A DNA stretch of 64,000 bases, from assembly GCF_014203545.1 (NCBI RefSeq), contig NZ_JACHJG010000003.1:186001-250000 (forward strand), given 5' to 3'. The position numbers were made by a program, and so were the translations under genes. This document shows, piece by piece, positions 7,003 to 59,997 of this stretch; position 1 is the stretch's first letter, and each line of letters starts with the position of its first letter. Source of the DNA: Streptomyces netropsis. Its GTDB lineage: Bacteria; Actinomycetota; Actinomycetes; Streptomycetales; Streptomycetaceae. The notes under the pieces are model-generated. The model was given only the letters and a program-made list of their open reading frames with translations, was not told where the DNA came from and ran no database searches.

Positions 7003-7665
7003 ATGCGTCTCGTCATTGCCCGTTGCTCCGTGGACTACGCGGGCCGGCTCACCGCCCACCTCCCTTCCGCCCCGCGTCTGATCCTGGTCAAGGCGGACGG
7101 CAGCGTCTCCATCCACGCGGACGACCGGGCCTACAAGCCCCTCAACTGGATGTCCCCGCCCTGCACCCTGAAGGAGGGCGACGGCAGCGTGTGGACGGTG
7201 GTGAACAAGGCGGGCGAGAAATTGATCATCACCATGGAGGAAGTCCTCCACGATTCCTCGCACGAGCTGGGCGTCGACCCCGGTCTCGTGAAGGACGGCG
7301 TGGAAGCGCACCTTCAGGAACTGCTCGCGGACCGCATCACCACGCTCGGTGACGGCTACACCCTGATCCGTCGCGAATACCCGACGGCCATCGGGCCCGT
7401 GGACATCCTCTGCCGGGACGCCGACGGCGCCACCGTGGCCGTGGAGCTGAAGCGGCGCGGCGACATCGACGGTGTCGAGCAGCTGACCCGCTATCTCGAG
7501 CTGCTCAACCGCGACCCGCACCTCGCCCCCGTACGAGGGATTTTCGCCGCGCAGGAGATCAAGCCGCAAGCACGCGTTCTGGCCACGGACCGCGGCATCG
7601 GCTGCGTCGTCCTGGACTACGACGCGATGCGCGGTATCGAGGACGACAAGCTCCGCCTGTTCTAG
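7003..7665 (+). CDS. nucS: Mismatch-specific endonuclease NucS/EndoMS
   Basis: The 220-residue protein is the actinobacterial and archaeal NucS nuclease. It cuts both strands at mismatches and replaces MutS/MutL in mycobacteria and Streptomyces. The N-terminal DNA-binding part (1-100) is followed by a RecB-like nuclease domain whose catalytic residues appear as Asp134 (GPVDILC), Glu148 and Lys150 (VAVELKRRG). The C-terminus DDKLRLF resembles the proposed sliding-clamp binding tail. Length matches the family. The ATG at 7003 has only a poor ribosome site. A repeat element follows the stop and separates the gene from the convergent ATPase gene. Confidence 0.96.
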
Positions 7666-7740
7666 GGACTGGACCGCCCGGCGGATCTTCGGCCACAGGC
7701 CCGACTTCGCAGCCTGCGGCGGCGGGCGCCCTGCGGGCGT

Positions 7741-7834
7741 GTCCTCAATCGCCGGACGGGCTGGTGTCGGCTGATCTCAGCCGACACCAGCCCGCTGGGG
7801 CACCTCCCAGCGGTAGCTGGGGGACATTGAGGAC
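7741..7834. repeat. Palindromic intergenic element, copy A
   Basis: This copy is bounded by GTCCTCAATC (7741-7750) and ATTGAGGAC (7826-7834), which are inverted repeats. Inside are GGTGTCGGCTGA/TCTCAGCCGACACC (a strong stem) and the block CACCTCCCAGCGGTAGC. Beyond the right end, CCGCCGCGCAGCGG continues almost to the stop codon of the convergent ATPase gene. It is nearly the same as the copy at 59869-59963. A likely job is ending transcription from both sides. Confidence 0.85.
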
Positions 7835-7858
7835 ACCGCCGCGCAGCGGAGGTGCGCC

Positions 7859-10441
7859 CTACACCGCCGGGGCGCTTCCGCTGCCCGACCCGTCCGGCGC
7901 CGGACCGCTCGCGGAGTTCGAGCTGCTCCCGGCGGGCGACGAGGGAAGCGTCGGATTCTGCGTCGGCGTCCCGGGGTCCTGCGTGGGCTCCTGCGGCTTC
8001 GTCGGCGTCGGCTTCTGCGTCGGCGACGTGGGATCGCCACCGCCCGGCGTACGCGTGGGGCTCCTCGTCGGCTCACCCGGCGACGACGGCGTGGTCGACG
8101 GCGAGCCGCTGCCGCTCGGGCTCGGCGACGTGCTGCCGGAGGCGCCCGGCGAGGACGGCGTGGCCCCCGGGCTCTGCGACCGGTCCGGCTTCCCGGTGCC
8201 GCCCGGCGCCTGCGGGCGGCCGGTGGCGCCGGGCGCCGGCTGGTCGGCGTTGAGGGTGTTGTCGCCGTCCTGCTGGGACGCCGACTGGTCCGGCTTCACC
8301 TGGTCCGACGGCTTGTGGTTGGGGCCGCCGGAGGCCGCGCCGAGCGTGACGACCGTGCCGAGGACGCCCGCGAGGAGCGCACCCGCGCCCGCCGCGATCA
8401 CATTGCGCCGGGCCCGGCCCACCATGAGTCTCCTGGCCCAGGGCTCCCGGTGCGCAGGGCGGCCCGGGCCGCTCTGCGCGACGGGCCCGGAGGCCCCGGG
8501 GAACCCGGCCTTGCCGCTGTCCGCGCCGAAGCGGCTGCCCGCGACCGTGGTCGCGCCCGAGTCGTGGACACGGCCCGTGGGCACGGCGTAGGGCGGGGTG
8601 ACCGACTGCTCGCTCCGCGCGGCCGGGACCTCCTCGCCCGCCGGGGCGGGGCCGTCCTCGCCGGGCAGCGGCGGCAGCGGTGGCACGCCGGGGACACCGC
8701 GCATGCCCATCGCCAGTCCGGAACGGTCGGCGACCAGCGCCAGCGCCCGGCGGCCGGCGACGGCGCCGCGCTTGTCGGCCATCACACCGCGCAGCCCGAT
8801 GGAGGCCTCCAGCTCGGCGCGGGCCCGGTCGAGATTGCCGGTGCACAGCGCCAGCACGCCCAACTCGTGGTGGAAATACGCTTCTTCGCCGACCTCGCCC
8901 GACATGCGCGCGGCTGCCTGGCCGTGCCGCAGGCTGCGCTCCCAGGCGCTCCAGTGGCAGGCGGCGGCGAAGGCGGGCGCCGCCGTACGGGCCAGCAGCA
9001 CCGCGGCCGCCGGGTGTCCGCTCCCGCCGTCGGCGACCAGCACGGCCATCGCGGCGAGGATCGCGTCGGCCTCGGCGGCGGCGCGCTCGGGGGCGACGGA
9101 GGGGTGCCCGGCCCACCAGGCGTAGTGCTGGGCGGCGGAGTGCGCCCGGGCGGCGGTGTCGGTGCCGTACCCCTCGGCGAGCAGCTGGTCGGCGACGCCG
9201 GCCGCGAGCCGGTAGTGCGCGCCGACGGCGGTGATCAGCCCGCTGGCGAGCAGCTCGCCGACGGCGGCGTCCGCGTGGGTGTCACCGGCCAGCGCGGGCA
9301 GGTGGGCCTGGTGGGGGACCTCGCCGCCAAGGGCGAGGGCGAAGCTCAGGGTGTCGCGGGCGACGTCGCTGAGCCGGGAGGCGAGCACGCCGACGGGCGC
9401 CGCGCTGACCGCGAGGCTCGGCAGCGGCGGCTTGACGTCGGCGCCGGCCTCCTCGGCCCCGCCCGCCGCGTCGGCCACGTAGGGCCGCTCGGCGAAGACG
9501 CCGAACTCGTCGACGGCGGCGGGGTCGGCGCCCGTCCGGTCGCGCTGCCGCAGCAGGGCCCCGGCCTGGACGAACCGCAGCGGCAGCCCCTCGGACTCGA
9601 ACCACAGGTCCGCCGCCCAGTCGGCTTCCTCGTCCGTGAGCGGCCGCTCCACGGACCGCTCCAGCAGCTCCAGGCAGCCGGTGCGGTCGAGGCCGCCGAG
9701 GAAGACCTCTTCGAGGTGCGAGTCGGGGGAGGGCGCGGCGACGTCGGGCGTGGCCGCGAGGAGGAAGGCGCACTCGGGGGTCGCGTCGAGCAGCTCGTCG
9801 AGCGCGCTGCCGCCGAACTCCAGGTCGTCCAGGACGACGACCGCGCCGATCTCGTGCACCGCCGCCAGGATCCCGGCCCGGTCGGGGCGGTTCAGCGGCG
9901 CGTGGTGGACGGCGGCGAAGAGCTCGTAGAGCAGGTCGGCGGGGGTGCGGTGGTAGCCGCTGAGGCGGACGACGCCGTCGGGGGCCAGGCCCTCGACCTC
10001 CGCGGCGACGGCGTCCAGCAGGGCGGTGCGCCCGGAACCGGCGGGGCCGGTGAGGCGCACGGAACGGCCACGGGAGAGCAGCCGGGTCAGCCGCTCGCGC
10101 TCTTCGTCCCGCTCCACCAGCGGCAGCTCGGGGCGGGCGGGCGGCGGCGGGGCCGCGGCGCGGCGCAGCTCGGCGCGCTCGTCGGCGCCGTGCCGCTGGG
10201 GGCGTGCGGGCAGCCTTCCGGGCGGGCAGGGCTCTATTTCGCTGCCGTCGACGGGGTTGACGGTGAGCAGATAGTCGCCGGTGACCAGCTGGACGACGCG
10301 GACGGGCCCCTGGCTCGCGGAGTCGGGCGCGCTCGACGACGCGGCCGCGGGCTCCGACCGCGACGGCTGCAGCGGGCCGCCGTCGGCGGACGTGCGGTCG
10401 TCGTCGTGGAAGTCCTCGGATCCCCGGTTCGTCGGGTCCAT
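7859..10441 (-). CDS. STAND/AAA-type ATPase with C-terminal membrane anchor and extracellular Ser/Thr/Pro tail
   Basis: This protein of about 860 residues has a disordered N-terminus, an NTPase domain with Walker A GPAGSGRT (about 132-139) and Walker B AVVVLDDLEF (about 200-209), and then an Ala/Leu-rich helical region to about 600. A single hydrophobic segment follows (about 680-704, VIAAGAGALLAGVLGTVVTL) and then a tail of about 155 residues made of Pro, Ser, Thr and Gly. The NTPase should be cytosolic and the tail outside. The ATG at 10441, nine bases after GGGGGG, is preferred to the TTG at 10447. Function unknown; STAND proteins are often signalling switches. A STAS gene lies upstream on the same strand, 240 bp away. 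Confidence 0.88.
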   Translation of the reverse strand: MDPTNRGSEDFHDDDRTSADGGPLQPSRSEPAAASSSAPDSASQGPVRVVQLVTGDYLLTVNPVDGSEIEPCPPGRLPARPQRHGADERAELRRAAAPPPPARPELPLVERDEERERLTRLLSRGRSVRLTGPAGSGRTALLDAVAAEVEGLAPDGVVRLSGYHRTPADLLYELFAAVHHAPLNRPDRAGILAAVHEIGAVVVLDDLEFGGSALDELLDATPECAFLLAATPDVAAPSPDSHLEEVFLGGLDRTGCLELLERSVERPLTDEEADWAADLWFESEGLPLRFVQAGALLRQRDRTGADPAAVDEFGVFAERPYVADAAGGAEEAGADVKPPLPSLAVSAAPVGVLASRLSDVARDTLSFALALGGEVPHQAHLPALAGDTHADAAVGELLASGLITAVGAHYRLAAGVADQLLAEGYGTDTAARAHSAAQHYAWWAGHPSVAPERAAAEADAILAAMAVLVADGGSGHPAAAVLLARTAAPAFAAACHWSAWERSLRHGQAAARMSGEVGEEAYFHHELGVLALCTGNLDRARAELEASIGLRGVMADKRGAVAGRRALALVADRSGLAMGMRGVPGVPPLPPLPGEDGPAPAGEEVPAARSEQSVTPPYAVPTGRVHDSGATTVAGSRFGADSGKAGFPGASGPVAQSGPGRPAHREPWARRLMVGRARRNVIAAGAGALLAGVLGTVVTLGAASGGPNHKPSDQVKPDQSASQQDGDNTLNADQPAPGATGRPQAPGGTGKPDRSQSPGATPSSPGASGSTSPSPSGSGSPSTTPSSPGEPTRSPTRTPGGGDPTSPTQKPTPTKPQEPTQDPGTPTQNPTLPSSPAGSSSNSASGPAPDGSGSGSAPAV

Positions 10442-15060: not shown

Positions 15061-15075
15061 GGCCTGTCCGGCGGA
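15054..15075. repeat. 22-bp repeat across a stop codon, copy 1
   Basis: The 22 bases that span the end of the adenosyltransferase gene, including its TAG at 15058-15060, recur exactly at 53076-53097. There they likewise span the end of the NlpC/P60 gene. The shared downstream part is GGGCCTGTCCGGCGGA. Confidence 0.75.
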
Positions 15076-15113
15076 TCATGGAGGGTGCACCACCGCTGCG
15101 CGGCGGCGTCCTC

Positions 15114-15171
15114 AAGCGCCGGACGGGCTGCTATCGGCTGAGCTCAGCCGATAGCAGCCCGTCCGGCGCTT
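15114..15171. terminator. 58-bp perfect palindrome, copy B of the intergenic element
   Basis: Both arms are 29 bases long with no loop: AAGCGCCGGACGGGCTGCTA then TCGGCTGAG, followed by the exact reverse complement. To the left, CCGCTGCGCGGCGG and GTCCTCAA match the outer parts of copies A and D in inverted order. It lies between convergent genes and would form a very strong bidirectional terminator or cruciform. Confidence 0.88.
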
Positions 15172-15200
15172 AAAGATCCCGGACCGGACCCGGCCCAAGG

Positions 15201-17187: not shown

Positions 17188-17870
17188 CGGACCGCGAGAC
17201 GGGCACCGATCACATCCGCGTCGTGGTCGCCGACGACCAGGCCGCCGTGCGGTCCGGGCTGGTGCTCATCCTGCGTTCGGCGCCGGGTGTCGAGGTCGTC
17301 GGCGAGGCCCCGGACGGCGAGGAGGCCGTGCGGCTGACCCGCGAGCTACGGCCCGATCTGGTGCTGATGGACGTGCAGATGCCGCGCCTGGACGGGGTGT
17401 CGGCGACCCGGCTGATCGTCGCCGAGGGGTTGGCGGACGTCCTCGTGCTGACCACGTTCGACCTGGACGAGTACGTCTTCGGGGCACTGCGCGCGGGGGC
17501 GGCAGGTTTCCTGCTCAAGAACAGCGAGGCCGCCGACCTGGTCGCGGCCGTACGGACCGTCGCGCGCGGCGAGGGGCTGATCTCCCCGGCCGTGACGCGC
17601 CGGCTGATCGCGGAGTTCGCCCGCCCCGCGCCCGCGCGGTCGGCGAACGCACCCGACCCCGCCGTCCTCGACGTCCTGACGCGCCGCGAGCGCGAGGTGC
17701 TGGCGGCGCTCGGGGCGGGGCTGTCGAACGCGGAGATCGCCGAGCGGCTGCGGATGGCGGAGGCGACGGTGAAGACGCACGTCAGCCGGTTGCTCGGCAA
17801 GCTGGAGCTGCGCAGCAGGGTCCAAGCAGCCGTGCTGGCCCAGGAGTTGGGTCTGGTCCAGACCTCTTGA
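17184..17870 (+). CDS. NarL/LuxR-family response regulator
   Basis: The 228-residue regulator has a receiver domain with acidic pair VVVADDQ (14-20), phospho-acceptor Asp63 (LVLMDVQMPRLDG) and a C-terminal LuxR helix-turn-helix (LTRREREVLAALGAGLSNAE to LLGKLELRSR, about 163-210). The ATG at 17184 overlaps the kinase stop, so the two are coupled. The 3' end of the gene contains the first of two 12-bp chitinase-type direct repeats. It may control the chitinase gene 161 bp downstream. Confidence 0.95.
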   Translation: MTDRETGTDHIRVVVADDQAAVRSGLVLILRSAPGVEVVGEAPDGEEAVRLTRELRPDLVLMDVQMPRLDGVSATRLIVAEGLADVLVLTTFDLDEYVFGALRAGAAGFLLKNSEAADLVAAVRTVARGEGLISPAVTRRLIAEFARPAPARSANAPDPAVLDVLTRREREVLAALGAGLSNAEIAERLRMAEATVKTHVSRLLGKLELRSRVQAAVLAQELGLVQTS

Positions 17871-17886
17871 CCGTTGGTACAGACCT
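17854..17886 (+). promoter_or_regulatory. Two chitinase/DasR-type direct repeats
   Basis: TGGTCCAGACCT (17854-17865) and TGGTACAGACCT (17875-17886) start 21 bp apart, two helical turns. This 12-bp repeat is known upstream of Streptomyces chitinase genes and overlaps the DasR responsive element (consensus core TGGTCTAGACCA). The first copy crosses the stop codon of the response regulator gene. A small stem, CCCTCAC/GTGAGGG (17897-17917), follows. Confidence 0.85.
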
Positions 17887-17983
17887 TCTTACCCTCCCCT
17901 CACAACTGTGGTGAGGGTGTTCATATAACGCACACTCACCGGGCTGCGCACAGGTTCCGACGTTCGTCCCCCACCAGTTAGGA

Positions 17984-18015
17984 CTCCCCCAGCCCACCGC
18001 TGGGAGGTGCCCCCA
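17984..18015 (-). repeat. Half-copy E of the intergenic element, before the chitinase gene
   Basis: The block CTCCCCCAGC, CCACCGCTGGGAGGTGCCCCC is the reverse complement of the CACCTCCCAGCGGTAGC part of copies A, C and D, with one small change (CCA instead of TA). It can form a CCCAGC/GCTGGG stem that ends 5 bp before the AAGGAG ribosome site. Confidence 0.75.
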
Positions 18016-20353: not shown

Positions 20354-20397
20354 CGATCGCCGGCCGGGCTGGACACTTCCAGCCCGGCCGGCGATCG
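20354..20397. terminator. Strong bidirectional terminator after the chitinase gene
   Basis: A perfect 20-bp stem (20354-20373 with 20378-20397) has a 4-base CACT loop. It begins directly after the chitinase TAG and ends 14 bp before the stop of the convergent DUF2550 gene. No U-tract is present, as is common in Streptomyces. Confidence 0.9.
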
Positions 20398-20410
20398 AGG
20401 CCACAGGAAG

Positions 20411-34178: not shown

Positions 34179-34299
34179 GTTGATCCTCTCGCGCTTTCGT
34201 CACGGCGGCTGTCCTGGGCCGTCGGTCGGGCTTGATGCATCGGCCCGGCCGGCGACCGCGGACGCGTCGCACGCCGCATTGGGGCATTGTCTCAGTCGG

Positions 34300-40952: not shown

Positions 40953-41301
40953 CGCTCGAAGACTCTCCTTGGTGTGGCCTCGGTGGGGCGTGCAACGTCC
41001 GCAAGGGCCGCGACGGCGATGCCGCGTGGGGGGCGACAGGGGTCTGCGACGGGGCGGAGTGAGTACAGCCTATCGAAGGAAGGTTCTGCGGCGACATAGG
41101 GCGCACGGGAGGCGCACGAAGCGTGTCGCCTGCGGCGCGCCGCTATGGCACGAGCTGGGCTGTTTTGGTGTCCTCGATCGCCGGACTGGCTTGTTCTCAG
41201 CCGGTCCGAGCAGTTGGCGGCCCGGCCTGGGGGCACCTCCCAGCGGTAGCTGGGGGAGTTCGAGGACCGTGACCCGGGGCGGAGCCCCGGGTCACGCGGG
41301 G
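40953..41301 (-). other. 349-bp gap between thrC and thrB with an inserted repeat
   Basis: No gene is seen. From the thrC side it holds copy C of the intergenic palindromic element (41170-41267). The remaining 217 bp lead to thrB and may contain its promoter. Confidence 0.6.
41170..41267. repeat. Palindromic intergenic element, copy C
   Basis: Ends GTCCTCGATC (41170-41179) and TTCGAGGAC (41259-41267) are the inverted termini. Inside, CACCTCCCAGCGGTAGC and TGGGGG match copies A and D. The central stem has diverged. This copy lies between two genes of one pathway on the same strand. Confidence 0.85.
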
Positions 41302-42390
41302 TCAGACGAGACCGAGCCGCTCCGCGGCGACCGTGGCGTCCACCGGCACGGTGATGGGCTGGGGCGCGCCGGCCACCGCCCAGTCGGGGTCCTTGAGGCC
41401 GTTGCCGGTGACCGTACAGACGATGCGCTGGCCCGGGTCGACCAGGCCCAGCTCGGCGGCCTTGAGCAGACCGGCGACGCTCGCCGCCGAGGCGGGCTCG
41501 ACGAAGACGCCCTCCTGGGAGGCCAACAGGCGGTAGGCGGCCAGGATCTGTCGGTCGGTCACCTCGTCGATGAGGCCGCCCGACTCGTCCCGCGCCTCCT
41601 CGGCGAACTGCCAGGAGGCGGGGTTGCCGATGCGGATCGCGGTGGCGATGGTGTGCGGGTCCTTGACCGGCTCGCCGCGCACGATCGGCGCGGAACCGGA
41701 AGCCTGGAATCCCCACATCCGGGGGTTCCGGGAGGAGATCCCGTCGGCGGCGTACTCGCGGTAGCCCCGCCAGTAGGCGGTGATGTTGCCCGCGTTGCCG
41801 ACCGGCAGGACGTGGATGTCGGGCGCGTCGCCGAGCATGTCGACGATCTCGAAGGCCGCCGTCTTCTGGCCCTCGATCCGTACCGGGTTGACGGAGTTGA
41901 CCAGCGCCACCGGGTAGTTGTCGGACAGGTTGCGGGCCAGCGTGAGGCAGTCGTCGAAGTTGCCGTCGACCTGGAGGATGCGGGCGCCGTGGACCAGCGC
42001 CTGGCCCATCTTGCCGAGCGCGATCTTGCCTTCCGGCACCAGGACGGCGCAGACCATTCCGGCGCGTACGGCGTAGGCGGCGGCGGACGCGGAGGTGTTG
42101 CCGGTGGAGGCGCAGATGACGGCCTTCGCGCCCTCCTCCTTGGCCCGCGTGATGGCCATGGTCATGCCGCGGTCCTTGAAGGACCCGGTGGGGTTGGCGC
42201 CCTCGACCTTCAGGTGCACCTCGCAGCCCGTGCGCTCGGAGAGCACCTGGGCGGGTACGAGCGGCGTGCCGCCCTCGCGCAGGGTGACGACCGGCGTGTC
42301 GGCGGAGACCGGGAGCCGGTCGCGGTATTCCTCGATGATGCCGCGCCACTGCTGGGTGCGGGGGGTCTGGCGACCGTTGTTGGCAGACAT
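41302..42390 (-). CDS. thrC: Threonine synthase
   Basis: The 362-residue PLP enzyme converts O-phosphohomoserine to threonine. The PLP lysine is Lys72 in [29 protein letters not shown] and [13 protein letters not shown] bind the cofactor phosphate and ring. The ATG at 42390 follows hom by 16 bp, so hom and thrC form an operon. Length matches the short bacterial form. Confidence 0.97.
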
Positions 42391-53082: not shown

Positions 53083-53097
53083 GGCCTGTCCGGCGGA
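53076..53097. repeat. 22-bp repeat across a stop codon, copy 2
   Basis: Identical to 15054-15075. It spans the TAG of the NlpC/P60 gene (53080-53082) and continues GGGCCTGTCCGGCGGA. Confidence 0.75.
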
Positions 53098-53194
53098 AAG
53101 TGCCGCGATGGGGTCGTCGATCGGCTGCGGCGCAGTCGTGGCCGGTCGCGCGGTTCCCCGCGTCCCTTCGGGGCCCGGTGCCTGGCCCGCACGG

Positions 53195-59784: not shown

Positions 59785-59868
59785 CCTCCGGCGGTTCGTC
59801 GGGGACGGTCTGACCTGCGGACTGCGGGCCGTCTGTGCCGCCTGTGGCGGCGGGCGCCCTGCGGGCGC

Positions 59869-59963
59869 GTCCTCAATCGCCGGACGGGCTGGTTTCGGCT
59901 GGGCTCAGCCACATCCAGCCCGCTGGGGGCACCTCCCAGCGGTAGCTGGGGGAGATTGAGGAC
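59869..59963. repeat. Palindromic intergenic element, copy D
   Basis: Inverted ends GTCCTCAATC (59869-59878) and ATTGAGGAC (59955-59963) flank GGCTGGGCTCAGCC and the CACCTCCCAGCGGTAGC block. On both sides identity with copy A continues (GGCGGCGGGCGCCCTGCGGG left, CCGCCGCGCAGCGGAGGTGC right). It lies between convergent genes. Confidence 0.88.
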
Positions 59964-59997
59964 ACCGCCGCGCAGCGGAGGTGCACCCGGCACAGCC

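Follow-up and report, generated by a model that had tools for sequence, protein, structure and literature searches.

A REP/REPIN-like family of palindromic repeats at gene ends of Streptomyces netropsis and its possible role as a U-less two-way terminator

Palindromic elements in the 64-kb window

Are the palindromic sequences that fill gaps between convergent genes of Streptomyces netropsis terminators of transcription, mobile miniature elements, or both? The first-pass annotation of a 64-kb stretch of its DNA (64,000 nucleotides, here called the window) had reported five copies of such an element, A to E, built of shared blocks in varying order, and had offered both readings. Copies A, B, C and D indeed contain the blocks described there, and the gene calls agree with the convergent setting given for A, B and D; the fifth copy, E, turned out to be a diverged CACCTCC module alone. 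Each half of the proposed reading has gained support, with copy E as the exception to the rule that copies lie at gene 3' ends.

The core of the family is a 23-nt unit, GTCC-TCAANCGCC-GGAC-GGGCTG, which is joined to further hairpin modules, termed here M0, M1, M2, M3 and M4. Copy A takes up the entire convergent gap (7666-7858) between the TAG stop of the NucS gene (7030-7665, plus strand) and a gene at 7859-10441 (minus strand). It comprises an M0-like end (7671-7687), the M1 hairpin GCGCCCTGCGGGCGT (7726-7740, plus strand), the unit GTCCTCAATCGCCGGACGGGCTG (7741-7763, plus strand), M4 CACCTCCCAGCGGTAGCTGGGG (7801-7822, plus strand) and, identified by eye, M2 on the minus strand (7835-7849, ACCGCCGCGCAGCGG on the plus strand); the core hairpin (7741-7834, 94 nt) folds with -80 kcal/mol on the plus strand at 30 C. 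Copy B contains module M0 GGCCTGTCCGGCGGATC (15061-15077, plus strand), which is similar to the terminal repeat of IS1648 and abuts the stop codon (TAG) of the gene for cobalamin adenosyltransferase, followed by M2 CCGCTGCGCGGCGG (15093-15106, plus strand), a unit (15108-15130, plus strand) and an inverted partner unit whose outer end has decayed (15155-15177, minus strand). Its uninterrupted hairpin spans 15114-15171, and the 64 nt from 15108 to 15171 fold with -67 kcal/mol at 30 C. In copy C (41170-41267) a unit and M4 lie in a tandem gap whose two flanking genes are on the minus strand; the upstream gene (at 41302) has its stop 35 bp away, and an M3-like hairpin CGTGACCCGGGGCGGAGCCCCGGGTCACG (41268-41296) adjoins the copy. 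Copy D (core 59869-59963) takes up a convergent gap of 213 bp (59785-59997). Copy E (17982-18015, minus strand) is a lone M4 that the CACCTCCCAGCGGTAGCTGGGG search did not match, and its position is not behind a gene but upstream of one, which encodes a GH18 chitinase. Upstream of the same gene (17853-17890) there are repeated GGTCCAGACCT-like motifs, which we take to be akin to chitinase promoter repeats.

Two copies had been overlooked: a variant of the GGCC...GGCC form (GGCCTC...GAGGCC, 20354-20410) between convergent genes, with related copies at the orthologous site in genome G060 and in S. eurocidicus, and a weak copy inside 34179-34299. At up to three mismatches CACCTCCCAGCGGTAGCTGGGG occurs three times in the window (A, C and D) and never in 100 shuffled versions; GTCCTCAATCGCCGGACGGGCTG occurs five times (A, B, C, D and the variant, at 20380) and never in shuffles.

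Abundance and taxonomic distribution of the unit

The original observation is confirmed, and its true scale is far larger than claimed. Where fewer than a handful of genomic copies had been named as the outcome that would speak against a family, the unit pattern GTCCTCAANCGCCGGACGGGCTG has 415 copies in the 8.04-Mb genome at up to three mismatches and the pattern of the CACCTCC module M4, CACCTCCCAGCGGTAGCTGGGG, has 40 at the same threshold, the reversed pattern giving 0 in each case. At up to two mismatches the unit is present in 111 of 150 Streptomyces genomes, with 0 to 388 copies among the species, and S. netropsis tops this sample with 388. A draw of 60 genomes from the whole order, which overlaps the 150-genome sample, contained the unit in 31 of 45 Streptomyces and in 0 of 15 others. 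The closest named genomes, judged by the adenosyltransferase protein, are those of S. lilacinus, S. griseocarneus and S. eurocidicus (94-95%).

A degenerate form of the unit pattern matched sequences on 5 IMG/VR contigs. Searched against plasmids and phages, a 301-bp stretch with the full element gave one weak match to a Deinococcus plasmid, and copy D gave no match to phages, the sensitivity of such short, repetitive queries being limited. Rfam assigned no family to the copies at the gathering threshold, and around copy A it returned weak matches far below gathering scores; a known RNA family as the identity of the element was therefore rejected. Palindromic high-copy repeats of this kind are well described in other bacteria. 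No description of the Streptomyces family itself was found in the literature covered, most subscription journals being outside that coverage. A primer for the end of adpA of S. coelicolor, given in PMC10771470, includes the core of the unit, and a piece of M0 occurs in PMC8313934.

Modular architecture of the clusters

The context of the units was analyzed in 1.26 Mb (1.257 Mb) of the 8.04-Mb genome, namely contig C1 and 144 kb of contig C3. This part contains 87 clusters, in which units are paired in inverted orientation, single, or arrayed head to tail with a period of 32-33 bp; singletons are common and at the loosest threshold make up 46 of 93 clusters. Directly 5' of the GTCC end, M1 (GCGCCCTGCGGGCGC) is found in 38 of 151 units, M2 (CCGCTGCGCGGCGGT) in 29 and M3 (CCGGGGCTCCGCCCCGGACCCCG) in 17, and 67 units have none of the three at this position. 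M4 (CACCTCC...) may replace the second arm. The most complete form, M0-M1-unit-spacer-unit-M2-M0, measures 209 bp (C1:117184-117392). At the loose thresholds applied, M0, M1 and M2 are unspecific on their own (299, 734 and 448 matches vs. 275, 707 and 190 for the reversed patterns) and were for this reason counted only beside units; M3 (35 vs. 7) and M4 (19 vs. 3) were compared with their reversed patterns at loose thresholds as well. With module thresholds of this looseness, the 87 clusters show 63 different arrangements, in line with the earlier impression that the modules recombine.

The M1 and M3 hairpins have, on one strand, GCA or GGA triloops closed by C-G. Triloops of this type are unusually stable in single-stranded DNA and are known from Streptomyces telomeres. 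At C1:1017719-1018173 (genome G000) we found repeats of about 160 bp, each composed of a gene end and a unit, beside an N run, which represent either a true tandem duplication or an assembly problem.

Location relative to genes and presence in related genomes

With gene boundaries from a codon-usage script written for this analysis, 85 of the 87 clusters are intergenic, and 84 of them follow the 3' end of one or more genes: 53 are found between convergent genes, 31 between tandem genes, 1 between divergent genes and 2 elsewhere. Counted by gaps of at least 50 bp, units are present in 51 of 135 convergent gaps, in 31 of 451 tandem gaps and in 1 of 179 divergent ones (Fisher test, convergent vs. 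divergent, p 1e-20), i.e. they show the enrichment at convergent ends expected in the first-pass annotation for a terminator. The tandem gaps total 111 kb vs. 32 kb for the convergent ones and yet hold fewer copies, of which 28 of 31 are nearer to the stop of the upstream gene. In relatives, a set of 46 clusters comprises 18 convergent, 20 tandem and 3 divergent ones, and a set of 15 comprises 13 convergent ones and 1 tandem one; the remaining 5 and 1, respectively, are located inside a gene or at an edge.

Orthologous sites differ in the presence of the element, as had been anticipated for a mobile one. Both flanking genes of site A are present in 67 named relatives, of which 5 have a unit, 59 have none and 3 are unassigned; the corresponding numbers for site B are 5, 50 and 15 of 70. 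In S. lilacinus, scored as devoid of the unit at site A, the gap contains an M4 module, a GTCCTCAAA start and an N run, and several relatives have a different hairpin at this site, as judged by eye. The gap of site D, 213 bp in S. netropsis, measures 25, 62 and 40 bp in genomes G018, G035 and G060, respectively. Over a part of C1, 38 comparisons revealed a unit in S. netropsis and none in the relative, with a median length difference of +118 bp, vs. a median of 0 bp in 202 comparisons with a unit in neither; both genomes have a unit in 2 comparisons and the relative alone in 1. The flanking gene ends in these comparisons are 75-90% identical. Since G018, G035 and G060 possess only 43, 8 and 21 units vs. 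388 in S. netropsis, growth of the family in S. netropsis is likelier than repeated loss elsewhere. At the site of copy B in S. eurocidicus and S. huiliensis (loci L143 and L168), part of the 3' end of the adenosyltransferase gene is present a second time, behind a GC-rich palindrome, which suggests another type of insertion at the same gene end.

Hairpins and their likely role at gene ends

Inverted pairs of units form very stable hairpins, such as those of copies A and B. We aligned 17 of the 19 long inverted pairs listed, omitting one whose right half is shortened and another that differs in its centre; the 33 aligned base pairs are formed in 93.6% of cells. Changes on both sides are found at 9 pairs vs. 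6.0 in shuffles, of which 11 of 500 attain the observed value. Doubly changed cells number 33 vs. 13 in shuffles, with none of the 500 attaining the observed value, and slid versions of the alignment yield no more than 5. The two arms of one pair differ at 1.37 positions vs. 2.27 across pairs; directly repeated neighbours are just as alike (1.27), so shared origin or local duplication could explain the likeness of the arms.

The median of the best 60-nt folding is -48 kcal/mol in convergent gaps with a unit and -45 in those without it, -47 and -38 in the corresponding tandem gaps, -33 in divergent gaps and -32 in coding controls. The element is hence as strong as the hairpins of unfilled convergent gaps. 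At 19 filled convergent sites, the median of -47 kcal/mol in S. netropsis compares with -33 in the 23 matching empty gaps of the relatives, which are short. As the latter value is only that of coding-like sequence, it counts against simple replacement of an equally strong native hairpin.

The most likely role of such hairpins behind convergent genes, as far as folding and position allow us to infer, is termination in both directions. The scan for U tracts, which covered copy A and its surroundings, revealed none, so a canonical stem-loop with U tract is absent there and the element would be a U-less terminator; a strong stem-loop at the gene 3' end, as in U-less (I-shaped) terminators, is present. 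A study of S. clavuligerus by Term-seq has likened U-lacking, highly structured 3' ends to I-shaped terminators (PMC8269248, in the portion available). Those ends share with our element the strong GC-rich stem-loop without a U tract, and the same portion deals with general classes of 3' ends, not with this repeat family.

The reading we prefer, to which we assign a probability of roughly 0.6, is that of a strand-symmetric Streptomyces family of REP/REPIN-like, non-autonomous palindromes that would have spread into gene ends, where they would act as U-less two-way terminators. Its basic entity is the 23-nt unit, with complementary tetranucleotides at the outer end and inside, and head-to-head pairing of units gives rise to the very stable hairpins, which are combined with other hairpin modules. 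The family would have multiplied or turned over after the split from the nearest sampled relatives; its copies are lodged right behind stop codons, chiefly in convergent gaps. There the element may replace or accompany the native hairpin, and would most likely serve as a bidirectional U-less (I-shaped) terminator and protector of RNA 3' ends. In the 1.26 Mb analyzed, 51 of 135 convergent gaps share this one repeat family, which three relatives lack at nearly all compared sites. If the copies do terminate transcription, stop signals would have been replaced wholesale by spreading repeats in an industrially important genus, and the filled and empty sites provide a natural series for tests of U-less termination in GC-rich bacteria.

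Less probable, and yet the strongest competitor, is the view that the repeats are purely selfish, have no terminator function and owe their 3'-end location to purging elsewhere. The range of 0 to 388 copies within one genus, which is incompatible with an essential role, agrees with this view, and so do the strong avoidance of divergent gaps and genes and the fact that relatives lack the unit at most of the sites compared, with empty convergent gaps that often have no strong hairpin. It is, however, difficult to reconcile with the covariation of the hairpin pairs and with the tandem gaps, greater in total length but poorer in copies, which cluster near the upstream stop.

Matched tetranucleotides and the search for a mobilizing enzyme

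Positions 1-4 and 14-17 of the unit are complementary to each other (outer GTCC, inner GGAC). In S. netropsis this holds for 114 of 131 units, 111 of them with GTCC/GGAC. Among 96 distinct units from relatives 87 are complementary, vs. 40 expected if the two sites were independent, and they belong to five forms: GTCC/GGAC (52), CTCC/GGAG (25), CGCC/GGCG (6), GGCC/GGCC (2) and GCCC/GGGC (2); these units were partly collected by patterns that fix CC and GG, with only the outer two tetranucleotide positions free. In five genomes, where such patterns were likewise used in part, 145 of the 150 matches listed (of 499 found) are complementary, and among these listed matches 6 of the 9 inverted pairs within 80 bp join a GTCC arm with a CTCC arm. 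Two matched forms thus coexist in the same genomes, and a single hairpin may have one in each arm. The mixed pairs, together with the complementarity inside the unit, indicate that the constraint sits within the unit and not between the arms.

In the unit an outer tetranucleotide is followed by 9 nt, its inner complement and a hairpin, a geometry that resembles the ends of IS200/IS605 elements, in which, as described in a passage of PMC6006769, a guide located immediately 5' of the foot of the hairpin interacts with the target tetranucleotide. This likeness raises the possibility, in our estimate an unlikely one, that an IS200/IS605-type (Y1) enzyme moved the unit as single-stranded DNA, as RAYTs move REPINs; such movement would be compatible with a terminator role. 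The persistence of the match through five variants, in arms that need not agree with each other, is what a guide and its target would lead one to expect. We found Y1 proteins in 46 of 150 Streptomyces genomes, and these have slightly more units (median 10 vs. 6.5 without Y1, p 0.07). On the other hand, the Y1_Tnp profile (PF01797) has 0 matches at threshold in the S. netropsis genome; the three genomes with the highest counts (S. netropsis, G002 and G051) all lack Y1, the next two (G079 and G085) possessing it. Furthermore, 10 of the 46 Y1-bearing genomes have no unit, and of 12 Y1 loci fetched from relatives 11 are devoid of it and 1 has a match with 5 mismatches. Each tetranucleotide form may also trace to one founder event. 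Equally doubtful is the idea that the unit forms the terminus of a mobile element of single-stranded DNA whose cleavage tetranucleotide and guide have co-evolved within one family into five matched pairs. Were this so, Streptomyces would harbour a REPIN-like population spread by some enzyme other than a recognizable resident Y1 (one that was lost, acts in trans or is of a new type), and such spread would seed ready-made bidirectional terminators behind genes; the matched tetranucleotides constitute a series for tests of target-guide co-evolution.

A Y1/RAYT protein as the present resident mover was rejected, given that the top three genomes lack Y1 and the fetched Y1 loci contain no clear unit. 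A transposase between neighbouring units 0.5-3.2 kb apart was likewise rejected: 10 of 19 genes from such intervals were scanned with Pfam and all are ordinary.

With the REPs and REPINs of other bacteria and their RAYTs (PMC3116915, PMC2817692, both in the portions available), the family shares a short unit in high copy number, hairpin-forming inverted doublets, extragenic location and clustering. It differs from them in that no RAYT was found in the genome, let alone one flanked by the repeat, and in that the unit itself is not a GTAG-tagged palindrome; Streptomyces is not mentioned in the text of PMC2817692 that was searched for it. A second group, the CGTC-tagged REPs, is characterized in the sections available of PMC3733652 by stems of 8-9 bp, loops of 4-5 nt and, in most cases, a CCA tail, and occurs in Proteobacteria and four other phyla. 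Common to both are the lack of a dedicated transposase, head-to-head dimers and a position behind convergent or co-directional genes, and CGTC occurs here at the junction of M1 and the unit. Read by eye, the unit nevertheless lacks a stem of this kind and does not show the combination of CGTC tag, 8-9 bp stem, 4-5 nt loop and CCA tail given in those sections, and the main text of that 2013 survey, as available, has 0 mentions of Streptomyces or Actinobacteria. Our family is therefore organized like REPs/REPINs, yet it lacks the RAYT and falls outside the defined GTAG and CGTC forms.

TAG stop codons and the IS1648-like outer module

Gene ends that face a unit have an excess of TAG stops (73 of 125 vs. 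127 of 591 facing unit-free gaps), both in convergent gaps (55 of 94 with a unit vs. 42 of 176 without, p 3e-8) and in tandem gaps (18 of 31 vs. 85 of 420). The excess is less pronounced in other species (18 of 56 vs. 20 of 103, and 10 of 27 vs. 254 of 1458). A TGA in a relative without the unit corresponds to TAG in S. netropsis in 36 of 55 filled-site comparisons vs. 12 of 170 unfilled ones. Of 59 comparisons at filled sites with TAG in S. netropsis, 36 show TGA in the relative, so that these data do not demonstrate a pre-existing TAG target. The protein end is unaltered in 76 of 95 filled-site comparisons. At the gene ends at window 7663-7665, C1:765829 and C1:753258, the TGA of relatives is represented by TAG or, before M3, by TAA.

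Module M0 (GGCCTGTCCGGCGGATC) corresponds to the end of IS1648-like elements of the IS5 family, which abut CTAG. At up to four mismatches it is found within 140 bp of 26 of the 87 clusters, vs. 1.3% of random windows per side, and TAG is the stop in 15 of 16 cases with an M0-like sequence within 20 nt. Base composition predicts 2871 CTAG in contig C1; the actual number is 200, and 64 of these are located at stop codons. With CTAG so rare and a third of its occurrences being TAG stops, copies would be steered to stop codons, and insertion could rebuild the stop. An analogous behaviour is described, in the portion available of PMC6794481, for TnRErm46, an IS481-family resistance transposon of Rhodococcus whose CTAG-targeted insertion supplies TAG stops; the likeness lies in target-site behaviour as described there. 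The match of IS end and CTAG would, judging from the sequences, account in part for the TAG enrichment beside units. The explanation is partial because ends facing units without M0 (within 20 nt) or M3 are still TAG-rich (59 of 99) and because flanking duplication (TA/CTAG) is inconsistent at miniature copies, and CTAG targeting does not fully account for the correspondence of TGA to TAG or TAA.

Of 7 plasmid IS relatives, CTAGGNNCTGTCCGGCGG is present at both ends in 3 and at one end in 1; CTAG with matching ends is found on both sides in 3, including IS1648 of SCP2, and on one side in 1, and inverted ends were not detected in 3 by the criterion applied. In the S. netropsis genome itself, a 1.5-kb interval (G000:C8:95069-96601, L341 2070-3602) has perfect M0 ends with CTAG on both sides and contains a broken DUF4096/DDE transposase and a mycothiol-S-transferase/DinB-like gene; it seems to be an IS that picked up a cargo gene. 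The 11 DUF4096 matches in the genome include this interval, with M0 at both ends, and one related IS (L359) with TA beside both ends.

In the scheme outlined above, IS1648-like ends of the type that abuts CTAG bound a minority of copies. The opposite emphasis, with the whole family being MITEs of IS1648-like IS5 elements and the unit and hairpins merely their interior, appears improbable to us. The agreement of M0 with IS1648-like ends, the inverted M0-like sequences that bound intervals of 98, 113, 157, 186 and 209 bp, and the link of units to TAG stops all point in its direction. As in IS1648/IS5 elements and their miniature derivatives, there is an outer block M0 with CTAG flanks; here, however, hairpin modules lie inside and 61 of 87 clusters have no recognizable M0, which in other species accompanies only 4 of 46 and 1 of 15 clusters. 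Moreover, some M0-bounded intervals contain no unit, and their flanks are not consistently duplicated. One M0-like end in the window (53083-53099) is located right behind a CTAG stop at a place for which no unit cluster is listed.

Strand of the units and tandem arrays in other species

Finally, the conserved primary sequence and structure, and the M3-bearing units of tandem gaps, which lie 5 to 1 on one strand in S. netropsis, could suggest a stranded RNA regulatory element in 3' UTRs, but this is hardly credible, as single units in tandem gaps are unbiased (7 on the same and 10 on the opposite strand here, 8 and 8 in relatives), M3-bearing ones are distributed 5 to 5 in relatives, and Rfam gives no family at the gathering threshold. 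In other Streptomyces (loci L262, L258, L266 and L067) the unit and a linker or an M3-like hairpin form multi-copy tandem arrays with longer periods.
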